Assembly (NCBI GenBank): GCA_943788835.1
Contig: CALSRU010000004.1
Location: 155,941-219,940 of the forward strand
Source: an uncultured Pseudomonadales bacterium
GTDB lineage: Bacteria; Pseudomonadota; Gammaproteobacteria; Pseudomonadales; UBA7434
Direction: 5' to 3'
Length of the DNA stretch: 64,000 bases
Each line of letters begins with the position of its first letter. The stretch's first letter is position 1. The position numbers and the translations under genes are program-made. Below are positions 1,833 through 59,346 of this stretch, piece after piece. Under the pieces are notes generated by a model. That model was given only the letters and a program-made list of their open reading frames with translations, ran no database searches and was not told where the DNA came from.

Positions 1833-2674
1833 TGTTTGAAAAGTTAGCCTCTAACAAACTGTTTGATGGTCAGCAGCTGCAATACCAGCATCACTCCCAG
1901 GTACTGGCTTGTACCATGCGTTTTTCGGTTTACTTGCCGCCGCAAGCACTGCAGGGCCCAGTGCCGGTGATTTATTGGTTGTCAGGATTAACCTGTAATG
2001 AGCAAAATTTTGTGTTTAAAGCTGGTGCTCAAAAATATGCTGCACAGTATGGTGTTGCCATTGTCTGCCCCGATACCAGCCCACGTGGCGACCACGTAGC
2101 CGATGATCCGCAAGGTAGCTGGGACTTTGGTTTGGGCGCTGGATTTTACATTGATGCAACTCAGTCACCGTGGGTCGAAAATTATCAAATGTACAGTTAT
2201 GTCACGGCTGAGTTGCCCAAGTTAATAGCTAAGCATTTTCCTATTGATGCGAGTCGCTCGAGTATTTCAGGGCACTCGATGGGTGGGCACGGTGCATTAA
2301 TTGCGGCGCTAAAAAAACCAGCGCAGTACCGTTGTGTGTCGGCGTTTGCTCCCATTGTCTCGCCCTCGACCTGTGCATGGGGTGAAAAAGCCTTAGGTGG
2401 CTATTTAGGCGTTAATAGAGCCGTTTGGCAGGCCTATGATGCTTGCGCACTGGTGGGTCCAGCGAGTCACCATTTGCCGGTGTTGGTTGACCAAGGCACT
2501 GCCGATGAGTTTTTGCCTCAGCAACTACAAACTGAGCGTCTAGTTGAGGTGAGTACCGCAGCGAATTACCCCATGAATATTCGCTACCAAGAGGGTTATG
2601 ATCACTCGTATTTTTTTATTGCCAGTTTTATAGAAGAACACATTGCTTTTCATGCTGAATTTTTATCTACTTAA
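1832..2674 (+). CDS. fghA: S-formylglutathione hydrolase
   Basis: This esterase hydrolyses S-formylglutathione to formate and glutathione, the second step of glutathione-dependent formaldehyde detoxification. It is cytosolic and 280 residues long, the usual size. It has the esterase-D alpha/beta-hydrolase fold, with the nucleophile elbow GHSMGG (Ser149), an acid in the DQGTADEF segment and a histidine in YDHSYFF near residue 260. The SGLTCNEQNF oxyanion-hole region at 51-60 is typical. ATG 1832 overlaps the frmA stop by one base, so translation is probably coupled. The frmA frameshift would stop ribosomes at 1363 and could reduce fghA translation. Confidence 0.95.
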   Translation: MFEKLASNKLFDGQQLQYQHHSQVLACTMRFSVYLPPQALQGPVPVIYWLSGLTCNEQNFVFKAGAQKYAAQYGVAIVCPDTSPRGDHVADDPQGSWDFGLGAGFYIDATQSPWVENYQMYSYVTAELPKLIAKHFPIDASRSSISGHSMGGHGALIAALKKPAQYRCVSAFAPIVSPSTCAWGEKALGGYLGVNRAVWQAYDACALVGPASHHLPVLVDQGTADEFLPQQLQTERLVEVSTAANYPMNIRYQEGYDHSYFFIASFIEEHIAFHAEFLST

Positions 2675-2740
2675 TTTGGACGCTGTATTAGGTGTTTTGC
2701 CTAAGTCGTCAACCATCAGTTTTTATTGGAGCCATTAATA

Positions 2741-3406
2741 ATGAATGTTACTCAAGCCATGCAGTCACGCCGAACTATTCGAGGCTTTAAGCCGGACCCA
2801 GTGCCTGCTGAAGTGATTCGTGAGATATTTTCTATTGCGCAAGAAAGTCCATCTAACTGCAATACCCAGCCGTGGCATGTTTCGGTAGTTTCAGGTGAAC
2901 AACGCGATGCGCTTGAAAATGCCTTGGTGACTGAAATCATGCTGGGTAAAAAGCCAGAGCAAGCGTTCCAGGCTTTTGACCAAGATCTAGCCGGTGTATA
3001 CAAAGATCGGCAATACGCTTGCGCAGCTGGTTATTACACTACCATGGGTATTGCTCGTGAAGACAAAGATGCACGCAATGCGCTAATGGTAAAGAACTGG
3101 CAGTTTTTTGGTGCGCCGCACGTGGCATTTATCTCCATGCCGAAAACGATGGGGCCTATTAACGCAGTTGATATAGGTATTTATTTGCAGTCGCTTATGC
3201 TGCTGATGGTAGAACGAGGGTTGGCGAGTTGCCCCCAGGGCGCGCTGGCTTTTTTTCCGCAGCCGGTGTTTGATTTAGCCAACATCCCCAAAGACAACGG
3301 CATTCTTTGTGGGCTTTCATTTGGCTATGCCGATGCTGAGGCAAAAATTAACGAGGTTAAAATGGAGCGCGCGGAATTGGCTGACACCGTGCAATTTTTT
3401 GATTAA
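2741..3406 (+). CDS. Nitroreductase family FMN oxidoreductase
   Basis: A flavin-dependent NAD(P)H oxidoreductase of the nitroreductase fold, 221 residues from ATG 2741. The start is chosen because a GGAG sits about 10 bases upstream at 2727; an in-frame TTG at 2726 is less likely. The N-terminal Q-x2-SRRTIRGF segment and SPSNCNTQPWHV near residues 44-55 are the FMN-binding signatures. The C-terminal SCPQG and GLSFGYAD segments match the group acting on nitroaromatics or quinones. The true substrate is unknown. It follows fghA by 66 bases on the same strand and may be read through from it. Confidence 0.9.
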   Translation: MNVTQAMQSRRTIRGFKPDPVPAEVIREIFSIAQESPSNCNTQPWHVSVVSGEQRDALENALVTEIMLGKKPEQAFQAFDQDLAGVYKDRQYACAAGYYTTMGIAREDKDARNALMVKNWQFFGAPHVAFISMPKTMGPINAVDIGIYLQSLMLLMVERGLASCPQGALAFFPQPVFDLANIPKDNGILCGLSFGYADAEAKINEVKMERAELADTVQFFD

Positions 3407-54803: not shown

Positions 54804-55568
54804 ATGACAATGCAAGATAAAAGTGGCCAGCGCGTTCCCGATGTGACTTTTCAAACGCTAAGCAATGGCGGTTTTGTCCCGCTAACTAGCGGTGACCTGT
54901 TTGCCGGTAAAACCGTTGTGGTTTTTTCTTTGCCAGGCGCGTTTACACCGACCTGCTCAAGCACGCATTTGCCGCGCTACAATGAGTTAGTGCCTGCGTT
55001 CCGATCGTGCGGTGTCGATAGTATTGCCTGTGTCTCGGTTAACGACGCCTTTGTTATGCAGGCGTGGCGCGCGGATCAACAAGCAGACAATATTGAATTT
55101 ATTCCCGATGGCAGCGGTCTTTTTAGTCAGGGCATGGGTGCACTCGTCAACAAAGATGAGTTGGGTTTTGGTATGCGCTCATGGCGCTATTCGATGCTTG
55201 TGCGTGACGGCGTCATCGAGAAAATGTTTATCGAACCCAATGAGCCAGGCGACCCCTTCAAAGTATCAGATGCCGACACGCTGCTAAATTATCTCAATCC
55301 AACGGCAGTTCTGCCAAAGCGCATAGCGCTTTTTACTAAACCTAATTGTGGATACTGCACGAAAGCAAAACAAAAATTGCACGATGCAGGGTTTAATTTT
55401 GAAGAAATTGAGCTGGGTAAGGGCGGGCATAGCCTTAGCTTGCTAGCAGCGGTGAGCGGCGTGGCTACCACACCGCAAGTTTTTGTCGATGGGGAGTTGG
55501 TTGGTGGGGCCGATCAGTTGGCAACATGGCTACAAACTATCGAAAATTCAAAACTTCCCGCACAATAA
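54804..55568 (+). CDS. Hybrid peroxiredoxin-glutaredoxin (Prx5-Grx)
   Basis: A 254-residue fusion. The N-terminal peroxiredoxin-5 domain (1-165) has the peroxidatic Cys51 in PGAFTPTCSSTH. The C-terminal glutaredoxin domain has the CGYC redox site at 182-185 and TPQVFVDGELVGG near 223-235. Such hybrids reduce hydrogen peroxide and alkyl peroxides with glutathione directly. Cysteines at 69 and 76 may not be needed. ATG 54804 has AGGAG about 8 bases upstream. It stands alone and ends convergent with the partner gene of the di-heme protein. Confidence 0.93.
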   Translation: MTMQDKSGQRVPDVTFQTLSNGGFVPLTSGDLFAGKTVVVFSLPGAFTPTCSSTHLPRYNELVPAFRSCGVDSIACVSVNDAFVMQAWRADQQADNIEFIPDGSGLFSQGMGALVNKDELGFGMRSWRYSMLVRDGVIEKMFIEPNEPGDPFKVSDADTLLNYLNPTAVLPKRIALFTKPNCGYCTKAKQKLHDAGFNFEEIELGKGGHSLSLLAAVSGVATTPQVFVDGELVGGADQLATWLQTIENSKLPAQ

Positions 55569-55602: not shown

Positions 55603-56223
55603 TTAGGGTAGTGTCACATCAAGTAAAAAGCGGCCTTGCGAGGCATGTTGTTGCGTCGTGTGAGTTATGTCCACCATATGCATGCCTGAAGCCAAAGCAT
55701 GGCTAGGCAGCTGCACTTCGATAATATCAGCGACGATGGTCGTGTCGGCAATCCACCGGCCAGTATCGTTAATGATGCGAGCATGCGGTGGCGTTGCGTC
55801 TTGTGCGAGCCCAGGGTTATGAATTCGCAGTATTAAATTATTTTCAAGGTCTGCAAGGGTGATTTGGAAGGCGCTTCCACCTATTGGAATGGTGAAGCTG
55901 CCGCTGGGGTCGGCTAGAAGTTTAATGCTGTTTGCCATAAGATCTGGCGGCTCGGTTGAGCGTGCATTGCTAGCAGAGATTTTTATAAGTTCCTCGCGTG
56001 TTTTCGGTTTGTACATTTCTGGTTCACTAGTCGAACGTTCCCCCAGTCCATCCTCGGCTTGCTTTACAGCCCGCTCAGTTGGATCCGTTGATGAGCTAAT
56101 GGCCTCTGGTTCAGAGACCGACTCTTGCGGTGCTAGATTACGAAAATAAAGCGCAGCTAAAACCACTAGGGTTAAAGCAATGGGTAGCCTTGACTTCCGA
56201 TAAATTTTAGTCGCGTTCAGCAT
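55603..56223 (-). CDS. Membrane-anchored periplasmic protein, partner of the di-heme propeller
   Basis: A 206-residue protein with one N-terminal membrane helix (about 13-28, basic flank KIYRKSR), then an acidic Ser/Glu-rich linker to about 100 and a beta-rich C-terminal domain. No lipobox cysteine. Its ATG (56223) directly abuts the stop of the upstream 1040-residue gene, so the two are translated together and likely act together. I do not recognise the family. Confidence 0.7.
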   Translation of the reverse strand: MLNATKIYRKSRLPIALTLVVLAALYFRNLAPQESVSEPEAISSSTDPTERAVKQAEDGLGERSTSEPEMYKPKTREELIKISASNARSTEPPDLMANSIKLLADPSGSFTIPIGGSAFQITLADLENNLILRIHNPGLAQDATPPHARIINDTGRWIADTTIVADIIEVQLPSHALASGMHMVDITHTTQQHASQGRFLLDVTLP

Positions 56224-59200
56224 TCAAATCGATGGCTTTTGAGTGGTGTGGCGACGGCTGGCGATGCCGGCCATGGTTATAAATAACATAAAGCTGGCCA
56301 GCCAGGGTAAGAGCGGAATGTGGATAGTTTCCGGCGTCGAGATTATTGATAGCGGATCGGAACCCTGCGCCACCTCAAAACCATCGCTGAATGTATCGCC
56401 ATCGGTATCGTAAAGAATTGGATCCGTACCTAAAGCGGTCTCTTGGGTATCAGTTAAATCATCGTTATCGTCGTCAATATCACAGGCGTTACCTTGATTA
56501 TCGCCGTCACTATTGAGTTGATTGTTGTTATTGGTGGCAGGGCAGTTATCCAGCCCGTCGAGGAGTGCGTCTTCATCTCGATTTATGCCCATGCGCACAC
56601 CCGAACCAGGCACTGTGCAAGTAAAAGTTAGTGGGCCCGCAGTGGCCGGTAGCGCACGGAGTGCTGCCTCACTAATGCTGTTGCCAATATCGTCAACAAA
56701 TGAACCGTTAGCCTGCAGCAGCCAGCCACGCGCTTGGCCATTCACCGAACCTTTGACTATCAAATCGCACTCATGGGTTACGCCACCAAGAATTAAAGAT
56801 GTGAAGCTCGTTTGAGCTCGGTTAATCAATAGATCAACACGGGCATTGACCGATGAAGCATTACTGGCGGTAAGTGTAACTTGCTGGCCAACTATCGGCG
56901 CTAAGTCGGTTGGAAAGGCAAGCATAAACTGCTCAACATCAGCTCTCATCTGATTGGGCGTGCCATTTTGATCGAGTAATTGTGGAAATACAGGGGCACT
57001 TAAAAAATGGTCAACGCTTCCAATAGAGCCATCATGCAAAAAGCCCGCGCCACGAATTTGGTCGGTGCCGGGCCCTCCTACATGTGAAGTGCCAAACATC
57101 CCGACTTTTTGGTACAGATTACGCAGGTGCGAGATCTTCATGTTTTGCGGTTCCCCCTCAACCGATTCGCGTCCATCCGTGCCAAAAAAACCGTTGGCAG
57201 GGTCTAGCTTATGGCAGCCATCGCAATTAAAAATTTGATCGCTTGTTGGGCCAACAAAAAAACCTGCACCATTGGCTTGAGCCGGTGTGAAGCTGTTATC
57301 TAGGTTAGCAACGGGGTTGGGCGGCAGTCGCAGCTGTAAGATAAAGTCGGTAAATTGCTGCATTTGTGCAGGGCTGATCGTGCCGTGTTTGCCCAACAGC
57401 CCTTCAAAGGCCAAAATGAAATTGTTGAATGAGGCCTCCTCACTGCAGGCAGCCCCACTGGGTTCATTGCACAGGTCAGCACCAAAAAAGCCATCAACCC
57501 GATCGCCGCGCCAATGCATGGCTCCGTGAGTTGCCATACCGCGTAGCGTTTGAGTCGTCATTGGGCCTTTCATTGGGTGAAAGGGGCGAGGTCCAAATTG
57601 TGGGCCGATAAATCCAGTCGCGCTGGGCTGATTATTAGTAGCCGAAATCGCCTCGTCAGGATCACCTAGGTTCCAAGCTAGGTGATCTAGGTCGCCGAAT
57701 ACATGGCAGCTGGCACACGATGACTCACCATTACCAGAGCTCAGTTGTGAATCGTAAAGAAAGGGTCGGCCATTTTTAATGAGCGCCGGTTCTGGATCAG
57801 ACAATAAATGTGTGGCAAGTGTTGCGCCCGAATTTAAATCAATTTCAGCAATGCTATGATCGAAGCGCTGCATAACATAAAGTTTGCCATTGGCTTCGTC
57901 TAACGCTAATCCACTGGGGCCGCCTGCGGTATCAATATAATTGCCACTTGCAGCGGACGGGTCAAAATTCGTTGAAAAGTTAGCATCTTCAATTTCAGCT
58001 GCTGTAAACACACCAATTTTGCTGGAACCAAAAGCTGCCAAATACACAGTATCGCCTGTGCTATTAGTAACTATTTGTAATGGGATTGCCAGCGTGTGTG
58101 GCCGCATAGCAGCAATGTCGGCATGTGTTTGAGGATCATTTTCAGTGTGCAGTTTAGTGTAGTCAATATGTTGGTTTAAATGCTTAGGCGCTACATTTCC
58201 CGTCACAGGATCAATGACTGTGAGGCGCGTTTGAGAGAGATTACCTTGTACGGTGCTACCTCCAAAATCACCGGGGCCTTCAAAGCGAACGTCATTAGGT
58301 GATTCATGGTTAGACACGTAAAGTTTGCCAGTAACAGGATTTACAACCATGTTGTAGAGTACTGTGCCTGCCCCTGCATACTCAGTTAGATTGAGATCGC
58401 TAGGTGAGGTGGTGTTGGCATTGAAAGAAAAAACATCTTTGTCTGGAAGCCCGAAGTTCACAATGGCGCTCCAATCACGACCAACAGCGTCAAGCCAGCT
58501 ATTGCCGTCAAATTTGACGATTAAACCGGTTTCTGGTGCAACGCCGGAATTACCGCTCGCTGGATCATTGGTAAAGGGGCCGGGTACACCGCCGGGTGCA
58601 CCAGATTGGCAGTTTGAGCCGCCAGCCATTTGAAAACCGTTGCACACTGAGACTTCACTGACCGTTGTGGTGCGATTGCCCGACATAAATGCAGCCACAT
58701 AAATTGTATTGCCGTCGGGGCTTACAGCAAGTGCGCGCGGTGTATCTGAAAAGGTTGTAATAATACGTTGCGGTATGCCACCGATCGCCGTATTGAGGCC
58801 AGTATTGCTGGCATCGAATATCCAAACGTCCGCGCGCCCAACATCTGGGGTTGTTAGCTGTGGATCGCCAGCGCCGGCTACACTGTTTAACGACGAATGC
58901 GTACGGTGCTGCCCGCGGTGGGCGGTGCTAATAAATGCGCGATCGGCGTTCGTGCCGCCAAAAACAATATCGCGCGGTTCGTCGCCAACCAGCAGTGTTC
59001 CTGCAACTAATGGCAATGTTGCGCTGACATCAACGATGCTGACGCTATCAGATAAATGGTTTACCACCCAGACTTCATCATTGGTGCGAGCCGCAACGGC
59101 AACGGGCTCCATGCCTACCGGCACCGAACCGACGTGGTAGAGCCCTTCACTGGTGACAGAATAAATTTCGAGGCGATTGTCAGGGGTGTTCACTGAAAAT

Positions 59201-59346
59201 AACTTGCTGCCATCGGGCGACATGGCCATGGGCCTTACATGACCGCTTTCGAACAAGTGATAAGAGGGCTGTGCGCTGAGTGTTGATGCTATTATAAGAA
59301 GGAGGAGGCCGCTTAAATTTGTTAGCCATTTGAATTTTTGCAGCAT
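56224..59346 (-). CDS. Secreted beta-propeller/di-heme cytochrome c protein with type-3 repeats and sorting-like tail
   Basis: A 1040-residue exported protein. A signal peptide (1-25) is followed by a beta-propeller of YVTN type (about 30-520, for example RALAVSPDGNTIYVAA). A di-heme cytochrome-c-peroxidase-like part has heme sites CASCH (544-548) and CDGCH (708-712), and GAGFLHDGSIGSVDHFL (767-783) as in di-heme oxidoreductases. Calcium-type thrombospondin-3 repeats follow (923-1000, DGLDNCPATNNN, DTDGDTFSDGFE). The end, IPLLPW (1010-1015), a membrane helix and RRH (1031-1033), resembles exosortase-type or IPTL-type sorting signals. Electron or peroxide chemistry at the cell surface is inferred. 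Confidence 0.85.
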   Translation of the reverse strand: MLQKFKWLTNLSGLLLLIIASTLSAQPSYHLFESGHVRPMAMSPDGSKLFSVNTPDNRLEIYSVTSEGLYHVGSVPVGMEPVAVAARTNDEVWVVNHLSDSVSIVDVSATLPLVAGTLLVGDEPRDIVFGGTNADRAFISTAHRGQHRTHSSLNSVAGAGDPQLTTPDVGRADVWIFDASNTGLNTAIGGIPQRIITTFSDTPRALAVSPDGNTIYVAAFMSGNRTTTVSEVSVCNGFQMAGGSNCQSGAPGGVPGPFTNDPASGNSGVAPETGLIVKFDGNSWLDAVGRDWSAIVNFGLPDKDVFSFNANTTSPSDLNLTEYAGAGTVLYNMVVNPVTGKLYVSNHESPNDVRFEGPGDFGGSTVQGNLSQTRLTVIDPVTGNVAPKHLNQHIDYTKLHTENDPQTHADIAAMRPHTLAIPLQIVTNSTGDTVYLAAFGSSKIGVFTAAEIEDANFSTNFDPSAASGNYIDTAGGPSGLALDEANGKLYVMQRFDHSIAEIDLNSGATLATHLLSDPEPALIKNGRPFLYDSQLSSGNGESSCASCHVFGDLDHLAWNLGDPDEAISATNNQPSATGFIGPQFGPRPFHPMKGPMTTQTLRGMATHGAMHWRGDRVDGFFGADLCNEPSGAACSEEASFNNFILAFEGLLGKHGTISPAQMQQFTDFILQLRLPPNPVANLDNSFTPAQANGAGFFVGPTSDQIFNCDGCHKLDPANGFFGTDGRESVEGEPQNMKISHLRNLYQKVGMFGTSHVGGPGTDQIRGAGFLHDGSIGSVDHFLSAPVFPQLLDQNGTPNQMRADVEQFMLAFPTDLAPIVGQQVTLTASNASSVNARVDLLINRAQTSFTSLILGGVTHECDLIVKGSVNGQARGWLLQANGSFVDDIGNSISEAALRALPATAGPLTFTCTVPGSGVRMGINRDEDALLDGLDNCPATNNNNQLNSDGDNQGNACDIDDDNDDLTDTQETALGTDPILYDTDGDTFSDGFEVAQGSDPLSIISTPETIHIPLLPWLASFMLFITMAGIASRRHTTQKPSI

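Follow-up and report, generated by a model that had tools for sequence, protein, structure and literature searches.

A 64,000-nucleotide stretch from an uncultured Pseudomonadales bacterium (C4:155941-219940, here called the window; host genome G000, 2.76 Mb, 98.97% complete) encodes a 1040-residue di-heme propeller protein, P0001, and, directly downstream, a 206-residue partner, P0002. We read the two genes as a two-component surface redox module, in which an exosortase would sort the di-heme propeller protein and the anchored partner would be dedicated to it, with a probability of about 0.5. P0001 is best described as a member of a hydrazine synthase (HZS) beta-gamma-like class that carries a sorting tail and is accompanied by a partner not described before, and the partner belongs to an uncatalogued anchored beta-sandwich family.

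A di-heme propeller protein with a sorting-type tail

Both genes have exactly the coordinates and lengths that a sequence-only reading had given them. That reading had also placed a propeller, two CxxCH motifs, thrombospondin type 3 (TSP3) repeats and a Pro/hydrophobic/Arg tail in one chain, and Pfam matches together with the sequence bear this out. The features of the pair, in window coordinates, are:

56224..59346, (-) strand, di-heme propeller protein P0001, 1040 aa (open reading frame, profile matches, predicted model)
59272..59346, (-) strand, likely Sec signal peptide, residues ~1-25 (read by eye from the sequence; model helix 2-23)
57826..59262, (-) strand, 7-bladed propeller, HZS-beta-like, residues 29-507 (VIA-align and profile)
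56857..57795, (-) strand, di-heme domain resembling cytochrome c peroxidase (CCP), MauG and HZS gamma, residues 518-830 (Pfam, NCBIfam, profile, hhalign)
57703..57717, (-) strand, heme motif 1, C544-A-S-C-H548 (CASCH; invariant in 34/34 rows)
57511..57513, (-) strand, Trp612, candidate inter-heme Trp of CCP/MauG type (invariant in 34/34 rows; alignment via L006)
57211..57225, (-) strand, heme motif 2, C708-D-G-C-H712 (CDGCH; invariant in 34/34 rows)
56602..56814, (-) strand, small beta domain after the heme domain, residues ~845-915 (model strands; predicted local distance difference test, pLDDT, ~90)
56347..56577, (-) strand, TSP3-type Asp-rich stretch, residues ~924-1000 (PF18884 and family-profile thrombospondin TSP3 matches; limits by eye)
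56251..56319, (-) strand, C-terminal sorting-type tail, residues 1010-1032 (sequence; model helix 1012-1031)
55603..56223, (-) strand, membrane-anchored partner P0002, 206 aa, type A family (open reading frame, profiles, gene neighbourhood)
56137..56190, (-) strand, likely transmembrane anchor, P0002 residues 12-29 (model helix; hydrophobic sequence)
55612..55926, (-) strand, beta-sandwich domain, P0002 residues ~100-204 (predicted model, fold search)

In Pfam searches of P0001, the Lactonase propeller (residues 33-219) scores 24.8 bits against a cut-off of 21.7, and TSP3_bac scores 31.4 bits against 25 over two stretches, the better at residues 980-999. Two CxxCH motifs compare with a chance expectation of about 0.004 for a protein of such composition. 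The predicted model has a pLDDT of 80.2 and a predicted template modelling score (pTM) of 0.84. The tail, IPLLPWLASFMLFITMAGIASRR (residues 1010-1032), has the tripartite form of motif, hydrophobic helix and basic end.

Tails, other anchors and candidate exosortases

A scan of GTDB genomes returned at least 590 stretches, at least 559 of them relatives, of which 80 were kept; together with 10 proteins from the host genome, its genus and its order, they make up the 90 members compared. A hydrophobic helix followed by a basic end is present in 25/90 members and in 12/299 background flanking open reading frames, the latter called mechanically rather than verified as genes. Among those 25, 16 (16/90) were assigned by eye to the class of P0001, here class I, in which TSP3 repeats are followed by a Pro motif. 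The remaining tails are PEP-CTERM-like, MYXO-CTERM-like or of Ser-Cys-Gly type; L068, L084 and L127, with tails of these kinds, fail the helix-and-basic-end rule and were added by eye. The tail is kept in all four full-length proteins of the genus (P0001 counted) and in relatives from other phyla, and the genome encodes exosortases, as the sequence-only proposal of a sorting-type tail had anticipated.

Many family members stop at the core and are tailless. The same-order homologues L014, L015, L016 and L033 lack a tail and have a lipobox-like Cys near the N-terminus, read by eye in L014, L016 and L033, which the script missed; the script flagged L015, L072 and L130, none of them tailed. L017 and L019 are ambiguous in this respect. 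That the core stays constant while the means of anchoring are exchanged is consistent with a function at the surface of the envelope. Other C-terminal ends were also observed: the Halieaceae-type relatives L065, L066, L070, L071, L072 and L076 have TSP3 repeats and then a terminal Gly-Cys, possibly a different C-terminal anchor, and L117, L126 and L135 have dockerin-like repeats in place of the tail.

The host genome contains two long and four short exosortase-family genes. One long enzyme is XrtD-like and the other XrtA-like, each just under the cut-off of its model. Of the short ones, one passes the XrtM cut-off (136.3 bits against 125) and lies 2.4 kb from a gene for a 1159-aa tailed TSP3-type protein. 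The check proposed in the sequence-only reading, to look in the genome for XrtH or other exosortases, thus turns up exosortases, with XrtM as the best candidate; XrtH itself was rejected as the host enzyme, the XrtM gene scoring 62.8 against the XrtH cut-off of 86. In the open-licence literature, no paper was found on exosortase together with XrtM, and a single one on exosortase together with diheme. The four short genes in G000 are:

L056:1719-2288
L057:2569-3156
L058:1763-2317
L010:1333-1839

In L057 and L058, GEGTDGL and TKHSDASM stand in place of the RGCDGSG or RGCDASM of the other two genes; the Cys that they lack is presumably the exosortase active-site residue. A tailed protein (L058:3064-3876, VPVPAFAAALLGLG...GRRR) is encoded 0.7 kb from the Cys-less enzyme of L058.

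Within the genus, the XrtM cut-off is passed by 8/12 genomes, including all four with a full-length large protein. Among relatives, the XrtM profile search covered the genomes of 36 of the 80 kept loci. Matches at E<=1e-8 occur in 9/9 genomes with class I tails and in 5/27 others (Fisher p 2e-5, ignoring phylogeny), a threshold picked after the table was seen; at E<=1e-3 the counts are 9/9 and 11/27. A short exosortase gene was read in all nine class I genomes, and a subfamily with an ECTG motif, recognized by eye, is common to seven of them and to the PEP-tailed G304. Scored against XrtH, four of eight class I genomes pass the cut-off of 86 (98.7, 95.8, 90 and 89.2) and the other four fall just below it (85.5, 84.1, 81.7 and 81.2). 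An XrtM-like label for the short exosortases of the relatives was dropped, since typing of ten shows XrtH-like scores. In G300 the best match is 505 aa long and not short, and a separate short enzyme, ECTG-type by eye, is unscored; the 505-aa frame (L164:511-1986) appears to join an exosortase-type domain to a further membrane portion, which has a Cys and Arg motif of its own, and is possibly a fused exosortase. Among the enzymes of the tailless relatives, L160 is a full XrtH (218.7 bits).

These patterns make an exosortase signal a plausible reading of the tail and strengthen the sequence-only guess of surface sorting. The strongest competitor, which we rate as rather unlikely, holds that the tail is a plain C-terminal membrane anchor and P0001 a periplasm-facing inner-membrane peroxidase or oxidase that sits beside its partner without sorting. 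A plain anchor, too, can consist of a hydrophobic helix and a following Arg, the partner likewise looks membrane-anchored in its predicted model, and cleavage of the tail is something that we infer; no NCBIfam CTERM model matched the tail at E<=1, although such short models are easily lost by filters. Against a plain anchor, tails similar by eye terminate other large TSP3-type proteins of the host, including the one 2.4 kb from XrtM; tail class tracks the short exosortases, though within one clade; and family members carry PEP- and MYXO-CTERM-like tails.

A likely membrane-anchored partner beside the di-heme protein

The stop codon of P0001 runs directly into the start codon of P0002 (TGAATG), so that the partner abuts the large gene as the sequence-only reading had it, and the proposed two-gene module is supported by conservation in the host genus and in Myxococcota. 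The predicted model of P0002 consists of one N-terminal helix (residues 12-29), a low-confidence linker and a beta-sandwich, and the helix is likely a membrane anchor. Neither P0002 nor the type B partners described below gave anything over cut-off in Pfam or NCBIfam; DUF5538, DUF2749, Por_Secre_tail and GltJ were listed weakly. The best VIA-align matches of P0002 (Z 9.3 to 5.5 among the best 50 listed) are generic beta-sandwiches, the top ones from phage baseplates, and therefore give no functional reading. A copper site in the partner was considered and rejected: azurin and N2O reductase appear weakly in Foldseek, and no His or Cys is conserved.

P0002 as a lone query matched within the genus only, in 3/293 genomes, host included. 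A third, divergent partner stands at the equivalent position in G003, where it was found by place and is not matched by P0002 alone. When a profile of the three was run against 1825 flanking open reading frames of the 80 relatives, the top three matches (E 0.27-0.35, weak alone) all belonged to one six-locus neighbour cluster. Profiles of the genus group and of this cluster match each other with an hhalign E of 4e-4, at a probability of only 34%. In both groups a transmembrane or lipobox-like anchor is combined with a variable linker, and the C-terminal ends are alike, most clearly at G-x-[YH]-x-[IV]..RRY. With place and layout adding weight to the sequence, the genus partners and the neighbour-cluster proteins are probably homologous. 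Across 11 aligned partners, G180 and R198 are the sole invariant residues besides the start Met. The partner gene lies downstream on the same strand in the genus, is convergent in most Myxococcota and lies upstream in L082 and L086.

A genome-wide profile search found the type A family in 11/13 genomes, with one match in each of ten and two in the eleventh; of these 12 matches, seven had been found earlier by adjacency and were included in the profile. Three of the five non-profile matches adjoin propeller di-heme genes (L154, L155 and L158); the L154 gene contains a masked stretch and its tail, read in another frame, is uncertain. Overall, a match adjoins a propeller di-heme gene in 10/11 partner-bearing genomes, seven of them found by that adjacency. 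In 40 further genomes, type A occurs at E<=1e-5 only in G003, G007 and G009, which are tailed, of the same genus and all in the profile, together with three weaker matches (E 5e-4 to 4e-3). The same-genus genomes G001, G002, G008 and G010 yielded no partner; all four carry XrtM but no full-length large protein, that of G010 being a fragment at a contig end.

L077, L091 and L097 form a sub-clade, and directly downstream of each is a different small protein with a transmembrane anchor, type B. Three genomes hold one paralogue of each kind (type A/type B: L080/L091 in G300, L155/L077 in G297 and L154/L097 in G302). The partner type thus goes with the paralogue, and this speaks for a dedicated role over a general one. 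In the 27-row clade that holds the host-genus proteins, an adjoining partner, A or B, is present for 15/18 members with class I or PEP tails and for 0/8 others; L062 was left out of this count because its contig ends 131 bases past the gene. L069 and L085 have no adjoining partner of either type.

Two other roles for the partner were weighed. It could be a general component of the sorting system, placed beside tailed TSP3 proteins whatever their function, as would be suggested by G304, whose sole partner match lies 1.9 kb from a heme-free tailed protein of TSP3 type. The single match per genome in ten genomes (two in the eleventh), the position beside a propeller di-heme gene in ten of the eleven, albeit found by adjacency in seven, and the lack of a partner in the four XrtM-bearing genomes without a full-length large protein argue against this, and we regard it as unlikely. 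It is very improbable that the partner is an oxidation substrate, with tryptophan converted to kynurenine as in the MopE/CorA copper proteins encoded next to di-heme peroxidases. Excerpts of PMC3912023 supply two-gene precedents in CorA-CorB and MopE-SACCP, but the alignment of 11 partners shows no conserved Trp, Tyr, His or Cys.

On the other side of the pair, a peroxiredoxin-glutaredoxin fusion gene (window 54804-55568, (+) strand) is convergent with the module; it was not seen in the fetched flanks of G009 and G003.

Relationship of the heme domain to hydrazine synthase and di-heme peroxidases

The best structural match of residues 29-507 among 963 chains compared with VIA-align is HZS beta (5c2v_B; Z 35.9, root-mean-square deviation 2.6, 326 residues aligned). 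A whole-model fold search is dominated by propellers and hence uninformative on the heme domain. Among PDB sequences, a 34-row family profile found HZS beta (E 3.2e-11) and, over a short stretch only, HZS gamma (E 2.9e-6). C544, C547, H548, H611, W612, C708, C711 and H712 are invariant in all 34 aligned rows. In hhalign, the heme domain matches its counterpart in L006 (98.8%), which is another propeller di-heme protein with a tail from the host genome, and L006 aligns in turn with the MauG/MbnH-like protein L002 (94.4%). Trp612 aligns with a Trp of L006 and, via L006 only, with a Trp of L002.

In the host genome, L060:235-5847 (G000 C4), which stops about 23 kb short of the window, encodes a second protein with propeller, di-heme domain, TSP3 repeats and tail; it has 1870 aa and extra N-terminal domains. 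At L002:328-1863, also in the host genome, is a tailed TSP3 protein, followed 30 bases on by the MauG/MbnH-like di-heme enzyme (1894-3285).

In architecture, P0001 is closest to fused HZS beta-gamma-like proteins, which the sequence-only reading had not named. Trp612 would stand at the position of HZS gamma His144; excerpts of PMC12758564 report that non-anammox fused beta-gamma homologues (clades I-III) also have Trp in place of this His and that the most important residues are not kept in them. That P0001 is itself a hydrazine synthase or a similar enzyme of nitric oxide chemistry, as the fused beta-gamma part of an HZS-like complex, is highly improbable in spite of the structural and profile matches to HZS, because the alpha domain PF18582 has no match at E<=1 in the host genome and P0001 reaches 37.9 bits where the NCBIfam beta-gamma fusion model requires 1250, and the Trp at the inferred His144 position likewise speaks against it. 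In the open-licence literature, a search for papers that combine at least four of the five subjects hydrazine synthase, CCP, propeller and the two host groups found none.

Descent of the module proteins

In a FastTree phylogeny, a method that joins long branches more readily, the host-genus proteins nest in the 27-row clade, which otherwise holds Myxococcota, 'Deltaproteobacteria', Halieaceae and unplaced gammaproteobacterial records (support 97-100). The same-order homologues L014, L017 and L033 group with the Pseudomonadales record L138. The position of the host-genus proteins inside the 27-row clade suggests a transfer from one phylum to another; the records are for the most part metagenome assemblies, and misbinning may account for single cases.

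Proposed mechanism and its standing

In the proposed mechanism, the large protein would be exported by Sec and would receive its two c-type hemes in the periplasm, while the C-terminal helix would hold it temporarily in the inner membrane. A short exosortase, in the host XrtM or one of its three short sisters, would then cut the tail and re-anchor the protein, which would come to rest at the cell surface or in the outer membrane. Two GspD secretins score above cut-off in the host genome and are a possible outer-membrane route; MYXO-CTERM and GlyGly-CTERM proteins traverse the outer membrane via the type II secretion system, according to excerpts of PMC11980579. Our best guess for P0001, in line with the extracellular oxidase or peroxidase proposed from sequence alone, is a surface peroxidase or oxidase: the heme pair and the invariant Trp would act on an extracellular substrate, the propeller may bind substrate or partner, and the TSP3 stretch may serve as a calcium-dependent spacer. 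The partner would remain tethered to the membrane, its beta-sandwich in the periplasm, and would help that one di-heme protein as a dedicated factor for assembly, holding or docking. What is observed is the anatomy of the proteins, the conservation of the heme motifs, the tail, the exosortase genes and the conserved gene neighbourhood; cleavage of the tail, final location, heme occupancy, catalysis and the role of the partner belong to the proposal.

Several observations weigh against this reading. CCP_MauG (residues 525-614) stays below its Pfam cut-off (21.3 against 25.6 bits), and the predicted model is least certain in the di-heme core, where pLDDT is about 42-70 across much of residues 550-790. 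XrtM is also present in same-genus genomes without a full-length large protein, and its cut-off is reached in 0/36 genomes of relatives. The short exosortases of the relatives are XrtH-like or other, and the enzyme would accordingly differ between the host genus and Myxococcota; short exosortases also occur in the genomes of the tailless relatives L065, L066, L076 and L125. Besides the heme-less neighbour of the G304 partner match, there is a weaker match, on G297 C3 (E 3e-6), whose fetched stretch contains no di-heme gene. All class I tails fall within the single 27-row clade, so the associations count few independent events: the links of tail to exosortase and of tail to partner each reduce to 3 independent pairs on supported branches, which is not significant.

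A broader proposal, which we hold only tentatively, is that these proteins form a two-component surface redox class, in which short exosortases display di-heme propellers of HZS-beta-gamma-like type and each paralogue has its own dedicated anchored partner (from at least two unrelated families, A and B), the whole being passed between Myxococcota and Gammaproteobacteria as a unit. If so, hydrazine synthase would count among its relatives a large family of enzymes that are displayed at the surface and anchored by several interchangeable means, short exosortases would gain a testable redox substrate, and the partner families, which match nothing in Pfam or NCBIfam over cut-off, would represent envelope proteins of a new kind, each bound up with a single enzyme.

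Comparison with known systems

The propeller of P0001 is of the type found in the YVTN surface-layer protein 1l0q (Z 33.0), which differs in being a propeller with PKD domains and has no heme domain in its title. The tail resembles those of the PEP-CTERM/exosortase, GlyGly-CTERM/rhombosortase and MYXO-CTERM/myxosortase systems in its short motif, hydrophobic helix and basic end. Unlike these, P0001 has a [VI]P-type motif after TSP3 repeats and no NCBIfam CTERM match, and its cognate enzyme is a candidate. As in MopE-SACCP and CorA-CorB, a putative di-heme peroxidase of the surface or periplasm is encoded together with another envelope protein; P0002 differs from MopE and CorA, from which it is set apart without direct sequence comparison, in looking membrane-anchored and in having no conserved Trp, His or Cys. 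With di-heme CCP, MauG and MbnH, the heme domain shares two CxxCH motifs with an invariant Trp between them in sequence, and it aligns through L006 to the MauG/MbnH-like protein of the host; unlike them, it is fused to a propeller and is below cut-off for Pfam CCP_MauG. HZS beta and gamma, fused in Scalindua, and the non-anammox fused homologues have the same combination of a 7-bladed propeller and a di-heme CCP-like domain with two CxxCH motifs, and the latter also have Trp at the inferred gamma His144 position (excerpts of PMC12758564). P0001 differs from HZS in that no alpha domain was found in its genome and in its TSP3-type repeats, sorting-type tail and anchored partner.

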